A program made the translations under genes and the position numbers. The notes beneath the pieces were generated by a model, which was not told the DNA's origin, made no database searches, and saw only the letters and a list, made by a program, of their open reading frames with translations. 38,907 bases of DNA from an uncultured Bacteroidales bacterium (GTDB taxonomy: Bacteria > Bacteroidota > Bacteroidia > Bacteroidales > P3): assembly GCA_900318175.1 (NCBI GenBank), contig ONJQ01000033.1:1-38907 (forward strand). The letters run 5' to 3'. Positions 11,325-38,907 of this stretch are shown one piece after another; within the stretch, counting starts at the first letter, position 1; every line of letters begins with the position of its first letter.

Positions 11325-11361
11325 ATAAAAAGAAAGCTGTCTTCCCCAATGAGAGACAGCT
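11325..11361 (-). terminator. terminator of the purN-glycosyltransferase-OmpA operon
   Basis: On the minus strand AGCTGTCT (11361-11354) pairs with AGACAGCT (11342-11335), followed by TTCTTTTT. It is 22 nt past the last stop of the operon. Confidence 0.88.
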
Positions 11362-11383
11362 ACAGTAATCAAATTGGAAACAA

Positions 11384-12574
11384 TCACATCGAAAGAATCT
11401 TGAATTCAACTCTGCGGTTCAGCGCACGCCCTTCCTCGGTATCATTTGGAGCGACCGGCATGCTTTTGCCATAGCCTTTATATTGAAGACGGCTTGCATT
11501 CACTCCCTTCGACACCAGATAATCCACCACAGCCTTAGCTCTGTTCTCTGAAAGCCGTTTATTATAGCTTTCGGAGCCTTTGCCATCCGTATGGCCACCT
11601 ATCTCAATGCACATCTGGGGATAGGTGTCAAGCAAAGCCAACAGTCTCAACATCTCAAAAAACGATTGCTGCAAAAGCGTGCTCTTATCGAACTCAAAGA
11701 ATATCTCTTTCAAAACGAAAGTGCCTCCAACAGCAAAAGAAGGCTGCTCTTCCGTCAAATAAGTTGAATCGACATTCAGGTCGTCCGCTTCGGGAGGAGG
11801 GCAATTGAGACACTCTACAGAAACATCATCGATATAGTAATAGGCGCCAGGGAGCAGCTGCGTCAATGAGTCGGGGTCCGTATAGCCCGATCTTTCCGCA
11901 GTGTTGAAATTACCTATTGTGATGTATTGCTCGCCACCCTGTGCCACAAAGGTACCCGTTACACATTCCCAATCTCTCGTGTTCTCAAGGTGACGGTCGG
12001 TCGGATTGACTATTTGTGGCTCGAAAGGCCTTGCCACTGTCTGAAACACCCCTTCAGCCAACTGCTCATGCTCCTTCTGGAGAAACAATGTCCTGATAGT
12101 GTCGCTGATTCGGTCTTTAGTAAATAAACCAGCGAGGGTAGAAACCGCGCCTGTCGACTCCTCGGACAGGCTGACATAGAACGTAAGGCGGACACTGTCG
12201 CCAGCCCTCAGTTTGCGCCGCAATCGCGTCTGGAGGTATTCGCGGTAGTCATTCCTGCTGCAATATATTCCACAGTAACCATCCCCATCGTGTGGGGACT
12301 GTTTGCCGAGTTTGTTGACAGGGACTCCACACTCTTTGCTGCCGCACACATTATAGTAATCGGCACTGCCGCGTGTTGGCTGATACCAGCAGTCCACAAT
12401 CGACAGCACACCTACTGCATCAATGCGTTTGGGGCACATCCTGTACTCCTCGAAAGAGCCGTTGTAAACCAGATTGGTATGTTTCACCGTATCTGGAATA
12501 GAATCCTGTTGGGCAGCAACTCCCACAGCACACAATATCATGACTGCCAAACAACCGAAACCCTTCATCTGCAT
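11384..12574 (-). CDS. secreted OmpA-domain protein with N-terminal sandwich domain
   Basis: The 396-residue product has a signal peptide ending near VAAQ. A region of about 240 residues follows that begins NLVYNGSFEEYRMCP and ends YYIDDVSVECL, the usual outline of a carbohydrate-binding-like beta sandwich. It also has several cysteines. The C-terminal OmpA domain begins near residue 285 (EIFFEFDKSTLL) and carries IEIGGHTDGKGSESYNKRLSENRA in pieces, ending RALNRRVEFKI. It probably binds peptidoglycan and presents the sandwich domain in the periplasm or at the surface. It starts 6 nt after the glycosyltransferase stop, so the two are co-transcribed. The biological partner is unknown. Confidence 0.85.
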   Translation of the reverse strand: MQMKGFGCLAVMILCAVGVAAQQDSIPDTVKHTNLVYNGSFEEYRMCPKRIDAVGVLSIVDCWYQPTRGSADYYNVCGSKECGVPVNKLGKQSPHDGDGYCGIYCSRNDYREYLQTRLRRKLRAGDSVRLTFYVSLSEESTGAVSTLAGLFTKDRISDTIRTLFLQKEHEQLAEGVFQTVARPFEPQIVNPTDRHLENTRDWECVTGTFVAQGGEQYITIGNFNTAERSGYTDPDSLTQLLPGAYYYIDDVSVECLNCPPPEADDLNVDSTYLTEEQPSFAVGGTFVLKEIFFEFDKSTLLQQSFFEMLRLLALLDTYPQMCIEIGGHTDGKGSESYNKRLSENRAKAVVDYLVSKGVNASRLQYKGYGKSMPVAPNDTEEGRALNRRVEFKILSM

Positions 12575-12580
12575 GTTGTG

Positions 12581-13714
12581 TTATTTTGATTCCTCGAAAG
12601 TAGTCATCATGCTGTCCCACAGCCTTGAGGCAGTGATGTCCCAACTGAATAGTTCTCTGCGTTTCCTGCCACGCTCTACCAATTCGGCACACAACCCAGC
12701 ATCCACAGCCACTCGCTGCAATGCCGCCTTCAGTTGGTCCACATCGGTGGGCTCTACCAGCAAGGCAGCATCGCCGGCGACCTCCGGCATCGATGTAGTA
12801 TTAGATGTGATGACAGGAACCTCAGCATGAAATGCTTCAAGGATAGGAATCCCAAAACCCTCGAACAGGGACGGATAAACTAATGCCGTTGCTGAGGCCA
12901 ACAGAAGGGCCAATTCATCCGGTTCGGCACGTCCAATGAAAAGCACATCATCCTTGTGGCTCATCGCATCGAAAGCCCTTTTCAACTCGTCCTGCCACCA
13001 AACCCTGTGCCCGACAACCACCAACTTCATTCCTTCAGCATCCTGCTCCCTGAAACGGTCAAAAGCCGTCAAGAGCGTGGCCAGATTCTTCCTTTTAAGT
13101 ATTGTACTTATAAAAATGAAATACCTCTTCCCGTCGGTGTATTTCTCACGAGCGGCCTGCTGCGTTGAAGGGGGCAAAGCCCTGTAGCCCTCATGTGCAC
13201 CGTCATAAACAACATCAATCTTCTCTGGTTGGATGTTGTATACCGTCGAGATGTCCTGTTTGGAAAATTCCGAAACAGTAGCTATACGAGTACTATAACG
13301 GGCAAACTGAGGGAAGAAATAAGTCATATACCGCTGATGCGAAGGCTTGAGGAAATCCTTGCTATGTTCAAAATTGATGTCGTGGATCACTGTCAGCATA
13401 GGCACATCCGTTCCCAATGGCAGATACCCGTCCGGTGACAGAAACAGGTCTATGTTATAACGCTTTAAAGCACGTTTTATACTTATCTGAAAAAAGAGAT
13501 ACCACAGCACAGGGTGCCTGGCTTGCGGGCAGAGCACCACTGGATGCACATTGGATCCAAACACAAAACAGGGGTCATACTTCCTGTCGAAAAAGAAGTA
13601 AAAGTCATGTTCCGGATGGTTGAGCACCAACCTCTTCAAAGTCTCGTTGGCAAACCACCCGATACCGTCCATTTTACCCGACAACAAAAGCCGGGTATTC
13701 ACCCCGATTCTCAT
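12581..13714 (-). CDS. glycosyltransferase family 4 (GT-B) protein
   Basis: The 377-residue protein has the GT-B two-domain outline. The N-terminal domain begins MRIGVNTRLLLSGKMDGIGW and contains TVIHDINFEHS and RIATVSEFSKQDI. The C-terminal nucleotide-sugar domain has FISTILKRKNLATLL, DVLFIGRAEPDELALLLASA and the EX7E-type PSLFEGFGIPILEAF. It transfers a sugar from a nucleotide donor; donor and acceptor cannot be read from sequence. Its start overlaps the purN stop by 4 nt (ATGA), showing translational coupling. Link to surface polysaccharide is inference. Confidence 0.9.
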   Translation of the reverse strand: MRIGVNTRLLLSGKMDGIGWFANETLKRLVLNHPEHDFYFFFDRKYDPCFVFGSNVHPVVLCPQARHPVLWYLFFQISIKRALKRYNIDLFLSPDGYLPLGTDVPMLTVIHDINFEHSKDFLKPSHQRYMTYFFPQFARYSTRIATVSEFSKQDISTVYNIQPEKIDVVYDGAHEGYRALPPSTQQAAREKYTDGKRYFIFISTILKRKNLATLLTAFDRFREQDAEGMKLVVVGHRVWWQDELKRAFDAMSHKDDVLFIGRAEPDELALLLASATALVYPSLFEGFGIPILEAFHAEVPVITSNTTSMPEVAGDAALLVEPTDVDQLKAALQRVAVDAGLCAELVERGRKRRELFSWDITASRLWDSMMTTFEESK

Positions 13715-14277
13715 TTCAAAACCGTTTTCTCTATCACCACGGGGAAATGCTCTTGTTCCAGCAGGTGGATTTTGTCCGCCACCGTGTCAGGGGTGTCCTC
13801 AGGGGATACAGTGCATTTTGCTTGGAAAAGGATTGTGCCTTTGTCATAGTGGTTATCAACAATATGTATTGTTATTCCAGTCTCACGTTCCTTGTTTGCA
13901 ACCACAGCCTCATGCACATGATGGCCATACATCCCCTTGCCACCATAGTTTGGCAGCAACGCGGGATGAATGTTGATAATCCTGTTCGGGAAAGCCTCCA
14001 AAATATCCTCGGGCACCAGCCAAAGGAACCCGGCCAGAATCACCCAATCTATCTCCCTCTCCTTTAAGTATTGCAGCACCTTTCCATTCTCATAGAAGTC
14101 TGCACGACCAAAATATTGTGAGGGAACACCAAGCCTTTTGGCTCGTTCTGCCACATAGGCATTGCGCTTGTTGTATACTATACAATCTACGGAAACCTGC
14201 TCGCTTTTGGCGAAATACTCGCTGATACGCTGAGCGTTAGTCCCGTTACCTGATGCTAATATTGCTAACTTTATCAT
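13711..14277 (-). CDS. purN: phosphoribosylglycinamide formyltransferase
   Basis: PurN moves a formyl group from 10-formyl-THF to GAR in purine synthesis. The 188-residue protein has ILASGNGTNAQRI for phosphate binding, the catalytic Asn-His in IINIHPALLP, and the catalytic Asp in GITIHIVDNHYDKG. Length matches the family. It heads the three-gene minus-strand operon with a glycosyltransferase and an OmpA-domain protein, an odd partnership for a purine gene. The upstream 297 bp hold only AT-rich sequence and weak TTTCTTTG boxes facing both ways. Confidence 0.95.
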   Translation of the reverse strand: MIKLAILASGNGTNAQRISEYFAKSEQVSVDCIVYNKRNAYVAERAKRLGVPSQYFGRADFYENGKVLQYLKEREIDWVILAGFLWLVPEDILEAFPNRIINIHPALLPNYGGKGMYGHHVHEAVVANKERETGITIHIVDNHYDKGTILFQAKCTVSPEDTPDTVADKIHLLEQEHFPVVIEKTVLK

Positions 14278-14536
14278 GTCATTTGAGTTTGTGCATTAAC
14301 GCTAAAAGTCTCAAATTGTTGCCCTTCCACGAAAATTAACATACAAAATTGTTTTCTTGCAATGGAATTTAACAAATCATAGCCCTAAATAACGCCAAAA
14401 ATAGGCATTTTTGAAGCCGTTTTGCCTCCTTTCATGCCCATCTGTAAAGACATTTAAAACACTATTTATCAACCGTATGACAAAATACGTGCAAAGAAAA
14501 AAAGTTAAAAATAGTGATTATATGGATTTTTTTTCG

Positions 14537-14544
14537 TTTCTTTG
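14537..14544 (+). promoter_or_regulatory. acpP -7 element
   Basis: TTTCTTTG followed by CACC lies 30 nt before the acpP ATG, after a T8 tract. It differs from the TAnnTTTG consensus at one position, and no good -33 is visible. Confidence 0.4.
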
Positions 14545-14574
14545 CACCCTGTTAAACTCAAAAAATTAAATAAA

Positions 14575-14817
14575 ATGTCTGAAATTGCAACGAAAGTAAA
14601 AGCTATCATTGTTGATAAGCTCGGTGTTGATGAAAAAGATGTTACGCTGGAAGCCAGCTTCACAAATGATCTCGGCGCTGACTCTTTGGACACTGTTGAA
14701 TTGATTATGGAACTTGAGAAGGAATTTGACATCCAGATTCCCGATGAAGATCAGTACAATGACTCTGAAACGTGTTGTAGTCACTGGCCTCGGCACACTT
14801 ACTCCTATCGGCAATAA
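14575..14817 (+). pseudogene. acpP: acyl carrier protein with its C-terminal helix replaced (3' deletion)
   Basis: The first 59 residues are a textbook [23 protein letters not shown], then [20 protein letters not shown] with the phosphopantetheine-bearing Ser in DSL, then DIQIPDED. After that the family continues with A-E-K-I-x-T-V-x-D-A and a final helix, but here the frame runs straight into the fabF start region. It reads [20 protein letters not shown] in the wrong frame to a stop at 14815. The last 18 or so ACP residues, the stop codon and most of the acpP-fabF spacer are gone, and the ORF now overlaps fabF by 59 nt. ACP is essential for fatty acid synthesis, so either another acpP exists or this is an assembly deletion. 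ATG 14575 is chosen over a TTG 33 nt upstream. Confidence 0.8.
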
Positions 14818-16003
14818 TGTATCGCAACTATGGGATTCCTTGTTGCGAGGAGTAAGTGGCGCCGGGCTGATTACACATTTCGATGCCTCGAACCTTCGTT
14901 GCCACATAGCAGCGGAGGTAAAGGGGTATGATGGTACTCAGCATTTCGACCGCAAGGAACTGCGCACGCTCGACCTTTTCACCCAATACGGTATCGTGGC
15001 CGTGGATGAAGCCCTGCAAGATGCAGGTCTCGACTGCGAGAAGGTCAACAAAGACCGCATCGGAGTGGTCTTCGGAACTGGTATGGGTGGTTGCGGAACT
15101 TTCCAAAACGAACTCATCTCCTATTGCGAAGGAGGCTTTGTGCCACGTTTCAGTCCATTTTTCGTAACCAAGACCATCGGCGATATCTGTGCCGGACAGA
15201 TATCCATCAAATATGGTTTCCGTGGTCCCAACTACTGCACCACCGCAGCCTGCGCATCGTCTGCCATGGCCATCGCCGACTCACTGATGATGCTGCAGCT
15301 GGGCAAAGCCGACATTATGGTTACCGGTGGTAGCGAAGCCGCCATCATCCCCATCGGCATTGGCGGTTTTGCCTCCATGAAAGCCCTCTCCCTCCGCAAC
15401 GACGACCCCGCCACCGCCTCGCGTCCGTTCGACAAAGACCGCGACGGTTTCGTGCTCGGCGAAGGGGCCGGAGCCATCATCCTTGAGGAGTTGGAGCACG
15501 CCAAAGCCCGTGGAGCCAAAATCTATGCCGAGATTACCGGCTGTGGACTCACTGCCGACGCCCACCACATCGCCGCCTCCCACCCCGAAGGGGCTGGGGC
15601 CATGCTGGCCATGCGACAAGCAGTCGAGGACTCTGGCATGCAGTTGACCGATGTCGACCACATCAACACCCACGGTACCTCCACACCCATTGGGGACATC
15701 TCCGAACCCCGTGCCGTTGTGTCGCTTTTCGGCGACCACGCTGGCAAGATTACCCTCAACTCGACCAAGTCCATGACCGGCCATCTGCTGGGTGCCGCCG
15801 GCGCCGTTGAGGCTATTGCCACCGTCCTGGCGGTGAAAAACGATGTGGTTCCGCCCACCATCAACCATTTCACCGACGACCCGGACATCCCATCCCTCGA
15901 TTTCTCTTTCAACAAACCCACACATCGCCGTGTTGACTTTGCTCTCAGCAATGCCTTTGGATTTGGCGGCCACAATGCCTGTCTGGCTTTCCGTAAATAC
16001 TGA
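14759..16003 (+). CDS. fabF: 3-oxoacyl-[acyl-carrier-protein] synthase II
   Basis: FabF condenses malonyl-ACP with acyl-ACP in fatty acid elongation. The 414-residue product begins [20 protein letters not shown], the normal family start, so the ATG at 14759 is used although the frame is open to 14714. Catalytic residues are in place: Cys in [11 protein letters not shown], His in [11 protein letters not shown] and His in [14 protein letters not shown]. It ends in [14 protein letters not shown]. The start is intact even though the deletion in acpP ends a few bases before it, leaving no visible ribosome binding site of its own. It is followed 2 nt later by rnc. Confidence 0.96.
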
Positions 16004-16005
16004 AC

Positions 16006-16773
16006 ATGCTGAACTTTTTCCGTTATCGAGGGGAACACAGAGAATTCTACCTTTTCTTTAAAAACATGCTGGGGTTCACCCCCCGCAACACCCAGTTGTA
16101 CCAGATTGCCTTTATCCACAAGTCGAAATCGCTGGACATGGGCAAAGGCCGTCGCGTCAACAACGAGCGTCTCGAATACCTTGGCGACGCCGTGCTCAGC
16201 GCCATCGTGGCTGAATTCCTCTATAAGAAATACCCCAGCCAGGGCGAAGGCTACCTGACCGAAATGCGCTCCAAACTCGTCAGCCGTGCCAACCTCAACA
16301 AGCTGGCTCAAAAGATAGGCCTCTCCCAGCTCATCCAGTACAACCGCGAATCGCAGGGCATCTTCAAATCCATCGACGGCGACACCTTCGAGGCCCTCGT
16401 CGGTGCCATCTACCTCGAAAAAGGCTACAACTTCACCCGCCACGTGGTTATCGACAAAATCATCAACATCCACCTCGACGTCGACGCCATGGCCCACACC
16501 GAATGGAACTTCAAAAGCAAACTCATAGACTGGGGCCAGAAGAACCACAAGAAAATCAGTTTCGAGGTTGAACGCACCTTTATTCAAGGCAAGGAGAGCC
16601 GACGGCACTACGATGTACGCGTGAAAGTGGACGATACTCCCGCCGAACACGCCATCGAATACTCCATCAAGGCCGCCGAACAGCTCGCCGCTGAAAAGAC
16701 CTACAAAAAATACCAGGAGCAAGGCATCATCCCGCCCCATACCGAAGAATCCTCCGTCCCGGGTACCCATTAA
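16006..16773 (+). CDS. rnc: ribonuclease III
   Basis: RNase III cuts double-stranded RNA in rRNA processing and mRNA decay. The 255-residue protein has the nuclease signature NERLEYLGDAVLSAIVAEFL (about residues 44-63), and the second metal-binding stretch DGDTFEALVGAIYLEKG. A C-terminal double-stranded RNA-binding domain follows, from about 165 (KSKLIDWGQKNHKKISFEVE) to the ordinary KAAEQLAAEKTYKK. All acidic active-site residues appear present. The acpP-fabF-rnc order is conserved in Bacteroidota and the 2-nt spacing implies coupled expression. Confidence 0.95.
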   Translation: MLNFFRYRGEHREFYLFFKNMLGFTPRNTQLYQIAFIHKSKSLDMGKGRRVNNERLEYLGDAVLSAIVAEFLYKKYPSQGEGYLTEMRSKLVSRANLNKLAQKIGLSQLIQYNRESQGIFKSIDGDTFEALVGAIYLEKGYNFTRHVVIDKIINIHLDVDAMAHTEWNFKSKLIDWGQKNHKKISFEVERTFIQGKESRRHYDVRVKVDDTPAEHAIEYSIKAAEQLAAEKTYKKYQEQGIIPPHTEESSVPGTH

Positions 16774-17357: not shown

Positions 17358-17396
17358 GAAGTCCCTGCCATGCAGGCAGGGACTTCCGTTTTCTTA
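17358..17396 (+). terminator. terminator after the toxin-antitoxin pair
   Basis: GAAGTCCCTGCC and GGCAGGGACTTC form a 12-bp perfect stem with a 5-nt loop, followed by CGTTTTCTTATT. It begins 1 nt after the toxin stop. Confidence 0.8.
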
Positions 17397-17441
17397 TTCA
17401 GCAATTTCTTCCTTGGTGCTTTATCACAGCCTAAATATCGG

Positions 17442-18449
17442 TCATGTCTTTTCTTCCCTTGAATACAAATCGGGGTAGCGTGCTTCGAGGTATTCCGCGA
17501 GGCCGTCGGGCATCTGGCTGCGCATGATGGCCAGCAGGTCGTTGTAGTTGTAGGCATAGTTCGGCAACACAAAGTACTGCCAAATCATTTCATCGAAACT
17601 GGCAGTCGAGCGGAAGCGTGCCAATAAATTGATATAGTTCATTGTCCTGATGCTGGGAGCAGTCCTGGTCTCAAAGTCTGCACCAAGGATGTAAACGAGA
17701 TTGGAATACTTAATATTCAACACCGCTCTCTGCAATTGTTGTGCCACTTCAGGTTCGATGAATTCATTGAGAGTTAGCATCTCGGCCATTGCATAATTGC
17801 TTTGTTGCAAATTAGTGACAGCTATCAGATGTTTCACCATTTGTGCTATGCCTTTGTTGTATGCATGTTCAACATTCTGAAAGTTCTTGATGTACTCAAT
17901 GAACTCTTTCTCGAAGTGGTTATTGTAATAACTCTCAGACTTAGTGTATGCTTCTGCAAATTTAGCAGGGCCGTAGTCGATGTATTCCGTCATCACTGGT
18001 TTGAAACACAAAATACTGTGGCAATCATCGTTTACCAGGACCACTTCCATCTGCTCCGAAGTGTCGGGGTTTGACTTCAATACAGGCATCCTTACCATAA
18101 AGTAAACCTTATCGTATGTTTTGCCGTCAGAGAAGTGCAACTGATGTTCGGGGCTAATCCAATGGAAGAAGTTGTAAGCCAATATCGCTGACGAGTCAAC
18201 GGCATAGGCTTTGGGCGGAATCTCATTCCCTGCTATCTCTGTTGGAGTAAAAACACTTTTTTCGCCAACATTGAACATCCGATAGAACTTTCCGTCAGGC
18301 ATCATCGCCTCACGACCCCCAGGATAGATACCGTCTAAGTAACTCGGCAAATAGCCTTTCTCATCGGGCTTGGCTGTCAAGACGGGTGAATTCATCAGAG
18401 CAATCCTCCATGCTGGCTCTTTCGGTGTGATTTGAAGGTTACGTTTCAT
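17442..18449 (-). CDS. uncharacterised protein, possibly PD-(D/E)XK-related
   Basis: I do not recognise this 335-residue protein with confidence. It starts MKRNLQITPKEPAWRIALMN and has a conserved-looking SSAILAYNFFHWISP (about 86-100). A segment follows, EVVLVNDDCHSILCFKPVMT (about 135-154), that resembles the beta-hairpin of PD-(D/E)XK nucleases (D/E...ExK). The position expected to be Glu is Cys (C-F-K), so the site would be degenerate if the fold is right. The remainder is helical and ends in an Asn/Tyr-rich region. No signal peptide or membrane segment is seen. It stands next to a clearer nuclease-like gene and a broken toxin-antitoxin pair, pointing to a defence-type neighbourhood. Confidence 0.7.
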   Translation of the reverse strand: MKRNLQITPKEPAWRIALMNSPVLTAKPDEKGYLPSYLDGIYPGGREAMMPDGKFYRMFNVGEKSVFTPTEIAGNEIPPKAYAVDSSAILAYNFFHWISPEHQLHFSDGKTYDKVYFMVRMPVLKSNPDTSEQMEVVLVNDDCHSILCFKPVMTEYIDYGPAKFAEAYTKSESYYNNHFEKEFIEYIKNFQNVEHAYNKGIAQMVKHLIAVTNLQQSNYAMAEMLTLNEFIEPEVAQQLQRAVLNIKYSNLVYILGADFETRTAPSIRTMNYINLLARFRSTASFDEMIWQYFVLPNYAYNYNDLLAIMRSQMPDGLAEYLEARYPDLYSREEKT

Positions 18450-18573
18450 AAAGTTATAAGATAATAGCTATTTATTATTTCTAAACACTGTGTCTATTTG
18501 CAATTTGGATTTTTCAAGAATACTTTGACCTGAAGAATATCCCCATCTCTTATGTCGTTTCAATGTAATATTT

Positions 18574-19287
18574 TTAATGAGAAGAAAAAGCGTCAATGAA
18601 GATGGGGTCAAGAATGTATTTTTTCAGTTCCTCATTCTGATTAATCTGCAATTCTTCATATTCTTTTTCTATTGCTTGCACAAACACAGCTTCGTTCACA
18701 ACATTATAATTCCTCTCTTGGATATACCCATTCTTGAAACCATTAATGAAATAGATATAACATAGCTTTGCATTAATTTTTATGATGCTATTACAGAAGT
18801 ATACGAATGCCAATCGATTAGCCAGTTGGTAATATCTTGATTTAGCCCATTTCTTAGCAAGTTCCATATCCTTACAGGTTAAGTAAAATGCATTGATTAT
18901 TTTATTTATACTTTTTTCTCCTGCATTTGTCCCTTCAGATTTCATTTCATCAAGGTGAGCTTTTGCCTCAACCAAATACAAAATATTATCTTGCCAAAAG
19001 ACACCATCCCAGTTTTGTGATGAACCTTTTTGTGGCCAAAATTTCACCCATTCATCTTGTATGAATTTTAGTTTTCCTTGAGTATTTTTGTGATGTCCAA
19101 AAAACTTTATTCCTTCGTATTCTCCATCGAGAGAGTGTCTTTTGGTTGAAACTGGATAGTCCATCCACTCGATTGGAGAATCACTCTTTGTAGCCTCTTT
19201 GATTTTGGAATCAAGGAAATTGCGATGATGTCCTAAATAACGCAGCAGTTGATATTCGCTGCCATAACCTAATGCCATTTCTGCCAT
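18574..19287 (-). CDS. putative PD-(D/E)XK nuclease-like protein
   Basis: The 237-residue AT-rich gene encodes a protein beginning MAEMALGYGSEYQLLRYLGH. The core QNWDGVFWQDNILYLVEAKA holds D94, E107 and K109, the spacing of the PD-(D/E)XK active site (D-x12-E-x-K), with a possible upstream Glu at residue 11. A helical C-terminal half follows (AKKWAKSRYYQLANRLAFVY). Such small nucleases occur in restriction and other defence loci, but substrate and partners are unknown. It is transcribed from a strong promoter 200 bp upstream with a structured leader. Codon use is AT-rich relative to the envelope genes beside it, suggesting acquisition. Confidence 0.7.
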   Translation of the reverse strand: MAEMALGYGSEYQLLRYLGHHRNFLDSKIKEATKSDSPIEWMDYPVSTKRHSLDGEYEGIKFFGHHKNTQGKLKFIQDEWVKFWPQKGSSQNWDGVFWQDNILYLVEAKAHLDEMKSEGTNAGEKSINKIINAFYLTCKDMELAKKWAKSRYYQLANRLAFVYFCNSIIKINAKLCYIYFINGFKNGYIQERNYNVVNEAVFVQAIEKEYEELQINQNEELKKYILDPIFIDAFSSH

Positions 19288-19354
19288 AATACTTGTTTAT
19301 TAATTTGTTACGCCTACTCTTTGCTGCAGTTTTCGGTTTCCCTGCAAGACCTCT

Positions 19355-38288: not shown

Positions 38289-38907
38289 ATGACAAACACG
38301 GACTTTTGGAAGCAAATAGAATCAGTTATTAGCGGCGTTTTACCTCCGAAGGTCTGAAAAAGCTTGACTATTATGCAGAGTTATTTATCTATGGACGACT
38401 TATATATAAACGATTTTCACCGTTTGAACAGCATGGCTGCGCAACGGGAGGTGCAACGCATGTCATTGCATCCCTACTCGCGGGAGCAAAAGCTCACACA
38501 GATAGCGGAGCTGCACCTTATGGCAACGATTTCAAAAGAGAATTCCAATGCGGAGCGCAGCAAGCTGAATGCATAGAGCGTTGGGCTCGCCTCACCAATT
38601 GCTGGACAGACTGCGTAGACAAGACGCTTTCCCATACGCTTGGCGAACAGATAGCTGAGGGCGGTGAAGCCAAAGTCTATGACCATGGCGCCACCCTTGT
38701 CAAAACCATCGGACTCGATTATTTTGTCCAACCTATCCTCGCACTCGACCGCATCTCACTCCACAACGCCTATTTCCCCGAAACACGGCTGACCGTCCTT
38801 GGTTTTGGACGCACTATAGAGGGCGACTTCAAGATAGTGGTGGAGCAGCCTTTCGTTAAGGGGAAGCATGTCGACGATAGTCTTATCGCTGATTATATGC
38901 ATCGTAT
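38289..38907 (+). pseudogene. kinase-like polyvalent-type protein, frameshifted near the start and cut by the window
   Basis: ATG 38289 opens MTNTDFWKQIESVISGVLPP and stops at 38355. From 38336 the next frame reads RFTSEGLKKLDYYAELFIYG and stays open to the window end. It continues GRLIYKRFSPFEQHGCATGG, RWARLTNCWTDCVDKTLSHT, AEGGEAKVYDHGATLVKTIG, YFVQPILALDRISLHNAYFP and RLTVLGFGRTIEGDFKIVVE. LAEGGEAKVYD-type and FKIVVEQPFV lines match the Ser/Thr/Tyr kinase-like family seen in polyvalent proteins of mobile elements. Joining the frames needs one extra base near 38328-38336, so a single-base loss is likely. No start exists in the main frame after the break. It is either a decayed gene or a sequencing error. 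Confidence 0.65.

Follow-up and report, generated by a model that had tools for sequence, protein, structure and literature searches.

The acyl carrier protein (ACP) gene acpP of the draft genome studied here lacks its normal 3' end and runs into fabF, and we propose that this clipped form is a deletion made during metagenome assembly (probability about 0.84), the organism itself most likely having a normal acpP of 78 aa that is followed by a short spacer and fabF. The locus lies in a window of 38,907 bases, which is the whole of contig C38 in a draft genome of 70 contigs and 2.90 Mb (91.78% complete, 2.26% contamination).

Structure of the clipped acpP locus

The features on which the analysis rests are as follows.

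14575, + strand: ATG of acpP, read directly; the register is shared with relatives through codon 58 (14748) and two bases of codon 59 (14750).
14575..14817, + strand: hybrid open reading frame (ORF) of 80 aa, with 58 acpP codons followed by 22 out-of-register codons from the spacer and the fabF start; the stop codon is at 14815-14817.
14750..14751, + strand: junction, at which 76 bases of seven relatives are absent.
14759..16003, + strand: fabF (beta-ketoacyl-ACP synthase II), complete, 414 aa; NCBIfam TIGR03150, Pfam PF00109 and PF02801.
14490..14750, + strand: identical block, comprising the acpP leader, the first 58 codons and 2 bases, delimited by exact-match scan and alignment.
38809..38907, no strand: contig-end overlap, in which the last 99 bases equal the end of contig C46.

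In its first 58 codons, its phosphopantetheine site and its place just before fabF, the gene resembles a usual AcpP (NF002151, TIGR00517, PF00550) of an acpP-fabF pair; it departs from such a pair in that codons 59-78, the stop codon and most of the spacer are gone and the frame enters fabF out of register. On alignment, 76 bases fewer are present than in G081, G018, G021, G027, G110, G142 and contig C85 of G017, and the gap measures 73 bases against G112, values that fall within the 60-100 bp of the preliminary description and narrow it. With the nearest sister, G081, as the reference, the missing sequence starts at the third base of codon 59, runs through codons 60-78 and the stop codon, and takes in 15 of the 23 spacer bases; this agrees with the loss of the stop codon and most of the spacer described earlier. 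The 59 perfect codons of that description have to be reduced to 58; the third base of codon 59 derives from beyond the junction, for which reason residue 59 of the hybrid is Asp. The number 76 is not divisible by three, so that the acpP frame passes into fabF in another register and ends at 14817; the near-normal length of the hybrid is a coincidence, as had been supposed. Between the junction and the fabF ATG (14759-14761) there are 8 spacer bases, and fabF itself scores 573.8 bits with TIGR03150 (cut-off 493.75). The junction is clean and free of N; no repeated base was seen there in an alignment judged by eye, and this lack of microhomology favours neither a real nor an artificial deletion.

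acpP tails in related genomes

The survey of the genus covered 120 genomes, 113 with a match and 7 without, of which 108 (the window genome included) were read, giving 110 acpP loci; the short weak matches of G008, G062, G085, G126 and G143 were left out of the tails read, and the second contig piece of G017 stands outside the 110 loci. The tail is normal in 106 of these loci. The four abnormal tails are those of the window genome, of G017, where a contig ends inside acpP, of G035, which has a run of N, and of G122, which has a 30-base in-frame deletion. Counted by genome, the acpP tail is free of both deletion and contig break in 105 of the 108, a figure that includes one genome with N there; the contig of G137 starts inside acpP, yet its tail is normal. 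A search for the exact junction pattern, which other letters at the junction would escape, returned one of the 120 genomes, that of the window. The description of acpP as lacking its normal 3' end and running into fabF, which follows from direct reading, is upheld, and the form is exceptional in the genus.

Comparison with the nearest relatives, which the preliminary description had put forward as a check, revealed in G081 an intact 78-aa acpP. Identity between G081 and the window is 89-94% in long aligned blocks, save for a 239-base block at 77%; it amounts to 89% over 11327-14750 and 94% over 14751-16733, in the same order on one G081 contig, and the other gaps do not exceed 11 bases in the 15,370 columns of the aligned blocks. 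The survey was widened to 80 fabF loci of named genomes, where a script found the acpP motif upstream in 72 and none in 8; the gene is of full length in 71 of the 72, the remaining one (L039, UBA1217) having an N gap. This gap and the N run of G035 (L160) are probably the same record, and hence not independent evidence.

Two genomes of the survey carry the acpP region twice. On contig C22 of G083 (L235, L236) it is present in opposite orientations, identical over all 817 bases compared, which looks like a palindromic assembly; in G076 it occurs on contigs C14 and C12 (L189, L252), again in opposite orientation and identical over all 822 bases compared.

An identical block and the proposed assembly fault

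The exact run that ends at 14750 extends over 261 bases in G081, 233 in G018 and G142, 190 in G021 and G027 and 185 in G017. By comparison, fabF identity taken gene by gene is 76-84% for G018, G021, G027 and G017, and identity over 14751 to about 16740 is 86% for G142 and 94% for G081. That the acpP block should show no base difference between species whose fabF or its neighbourhood diverges by 6-24% is an observation of its own, and the fixed synonymous sites may be due to selection on codons, to gene exchange or to some other constraint. Beyond the block the sequence varies. Within the nearest cluster, which has seven species, variation at third positions stays at 0.03-0.06 through codons 1-50, rises to 0.11 in codons 51-60 and to 0.41 in codons 61-70, and falls back to 0.10 in codons 71-78; the missing stretch is, in this cluster, a variable patch between conserved flanks. 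The peak at codons 61-70 is present in three of the six clusters of at least four members (the nearest cluster included), not in the other three, and it is not seen when all 78 sequences are pooled.

The ends of contigs bear traces of how they were assembled. The exact 99-base overlap of the window contig with C46 would point to a de Bruijn word length of about 99, and G017 has two contigs whose ends lie inside acpP and overlap exactly over 141 bases. PMC10914622 reports that the contig ends which assemblers produce at repeats overlap by the maximal word length or by that length minus one, and the word lengths used in that study give 99 and 141. The identical acpP block (185-261 bases in six species) is about twice as long as the 99-base overlap.

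We propose the following sequence of events. In several species of the genus the acpP leader and first 58 codons agree letter for letter over about 190-260 bases. This is longer than the word length of about 99, so that the paths of co-resident species would come together in one graph node. The variable stretch after the block would then produce branching and the conserved sequence that resumes around the fabF start would produce re-merging, and at this spot the assembler would drop 76 bases. We infer that the assembly was a short-read metagenome assembly, that congeners were in the source sample, that reads with the missing bases exist and that a step of the assembler was at fault. The 99- and 141-base end overlaps, together with the longer interspecies identity, resemble short-read metagenome misassembly at sequence common to co-resident species as described in PMC10914622 and PMC7299287; in contrast to misassembly by a break or a species switch, the present case is a clean internal deletion.

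Other assemblies are irregular at the same place, namely G017 (break), G035 (N gap) and G122 (30-base deletion), among the 108 genomes read. Of the 10 genomes with a near-identical block, 3 have tail irregularities (G017, G122 and the window genome G000), against 1 of the 98 others (G035), with a one-sided p of 0.002; without the window genome the figures are 2 of 9 against 1 of 98 (p 0.018); both p values are post hoc, the grouping of genomes having been chosen after the data were seen. The G122 deletion may be real; it removes ten residues from the same part of acpP (L145, L261). In this genome, which is 96% complete, no other ACP exceeds the Pfam cut-off, and a real deletion in G122 would lend weight to a biological reading of the window locus.

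Of the three explanations that the preliminary description had offered, the assembly deletion is the best supported. In its favour are the confinement of the junction to one of 120 genomes, the intact acpP of G081, the clipped gene being the sole ACP over the cut-off, and the identical block; against it stand the clean N-free junction, the lack of a leftover tail on another contig, and the fact that the G122 deletion is in frame. The earlier interpretation as a whole is partly supported, the identical interspecies block and the other faults at the same place having lain outside its view. The case calls for caution, as a draft contig that is clean and free of N can still show an essential gene with a deletion that is false; such deletions are to be expected in genes with long stretches identical across related species.

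The hybrid protein and the search for another acyl carrier protein

The hybrid protein retains family membership on its first 60 residues. It scores 98.6 bits with NF002151 (cut-off 92), over profile positions 1-60 of 78, whereas the full-length G081 protein scores 126.4 bits over positions 1-77; it is also above the cut-offs for TIGR00517 (86.9 against 70.45 bits) and PF00550 (54.8 against 20.8 bits) and, unlike the G081 protein, below that for NF002149 (88.4 against 106). The cut-offs of NF002151 and TIGR00517 are reached within those 60 residues. GADSLD occupies residues 34-39; helix II and the Asp-Ser-Leu site are kept, this motif at the start of helix II being the site of the phosphopantetheine serine (PMC6619796). 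AlphaFold2 gave the hybrid a mean pLDDT of 55.3 and a pTM of 0.26, with two helices and all of residues 60-80 below 50, and gave a full-length relative (L035), with the same alignment companions, a mean pLDDT of 83.4 and a pTM of 0.63, with four helices; low model confidence in the tail is to be expected, since the tail has no relatives in the alignment. Helices III and IV are absent and the tail is predicted to be disordered, and the hybrid shows neither a full-length profile match (the match ends at position 60 of 78) nor a complete four-helix bundle (two helices are modelled). The final ACP helix had been noted as missing; it is lost, and the statement fell short in that most of helix III is gone as well.

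An intact ACP encoded in an unassembled part of the genome would make a real deletion, in the lineage or in part of its population, tolerable, and this we regard as unlikely. The clean junction is consistent with it, as is the completeness of 91.78%, by which about 8% of the genome, and the gene with it, may be missing from the assembly. A second, diverged ACP scores above the cut-off in some congeners (among them G035 on C19, G137 on C141 and G006 on C105), and therefore the unassembled part of the window genome may hold one too. The second acpP suggested in the preliminary description was not found in the assembly, in which the one PF00550 match over the cut-off is the clipped acpP, and 105 of the 108 congeneric genomes without tail deletion or contig break speak against a real loss. 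The two weaker PF00550 matches were rejected as a second acpP. The first (E 0.027, on C24) is an ORF of 86 aa, ACP-like but in another gene setting, to which neither Pfam nor NCBIfam gave a family at E 0.001; G081, in addition to its intact acpP, also has a match with the same profile bounds. The second (E 0.24) sits in a long ORF that reads as a putative peptidase. Nor was the lost ACP tail found on other contigs when the 32-residue tail of a relative was compared with the genome: this query matched the clipped acpP (E 0.05) and a 44%-identical stretch on C56 (E 0.029), which lies in a 451-aa frame that is by eye a putative signal recognition particle protein Ffh, and which was taken as chance. 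AcpS-type, FabH-type and FabF genes are present in the genome, and their retention leads us to expect a full ACP.

That the deletion is real and that the hybrid works as the only ACP, or that the C24 protein replaces it, is very improbable. The retained Asp-Ser-Leu site and helix II, the scores above the NF002151 and TIGR00517 cut-offs, and the likewise shortened only ACP of G122 would all suit a working short protein. The tolerated short ACP of the preliminary description is nevertheless disfavoured, since the hybrid has lost helices III and IV and ends in a tail predicted to be disordered; the predicted model is poor (pLDDT 55, pTM 0.26) beside that of the full relative (83, 0.63), helix III takes part in binding the acyl chain (PMC6619796), and AcpP is described as an essential hub of fatty-acid synthesis (PMC8602292). 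As for the C24 protein, its lack of an assigned family argues against a replacement. Comparably hard to credit is that two species of one clade of Bacteroidales, that of the window and G122, should each have lost the helix III region by its own deletion, from an ACP that is their only one for fatty acids, and should live with a minimal carrier or an unrecognised replacement. Should the deletion be real, fatty-acid synthesis without a complete ACP would be very surprising.

The least probable account is a chimeric contig, with one species up to 14750 and another from fabF onwards, joined at the common block: the block would permit such a switch, and PMC7299287 describes metagenome contigs made chimeric by shared k-mers, but G081 is the nearest of the relatives compared on both sides (89% and 94%), in order on one of its contigs, and a species switch by itself would not take out 76 bases.

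Other observations

Close to the C24 ORF (L133:3204-3464), an adenylating-enzyme-like ORF lies upstream and acetyltransferase-like and deacetylase-like ORFs are near, all named from their translations; together they perhaps form a small biosynthetic cluster. Elsewhere in the window, 17358-18452 and 19150-19345 are about 97.5% identical to G142, with an exact run of 473 bases at 17641-18113, whereas the neighbouring blocks are 73-86% identical; the high identity of these two stretches is perhaps due to recent exchange.
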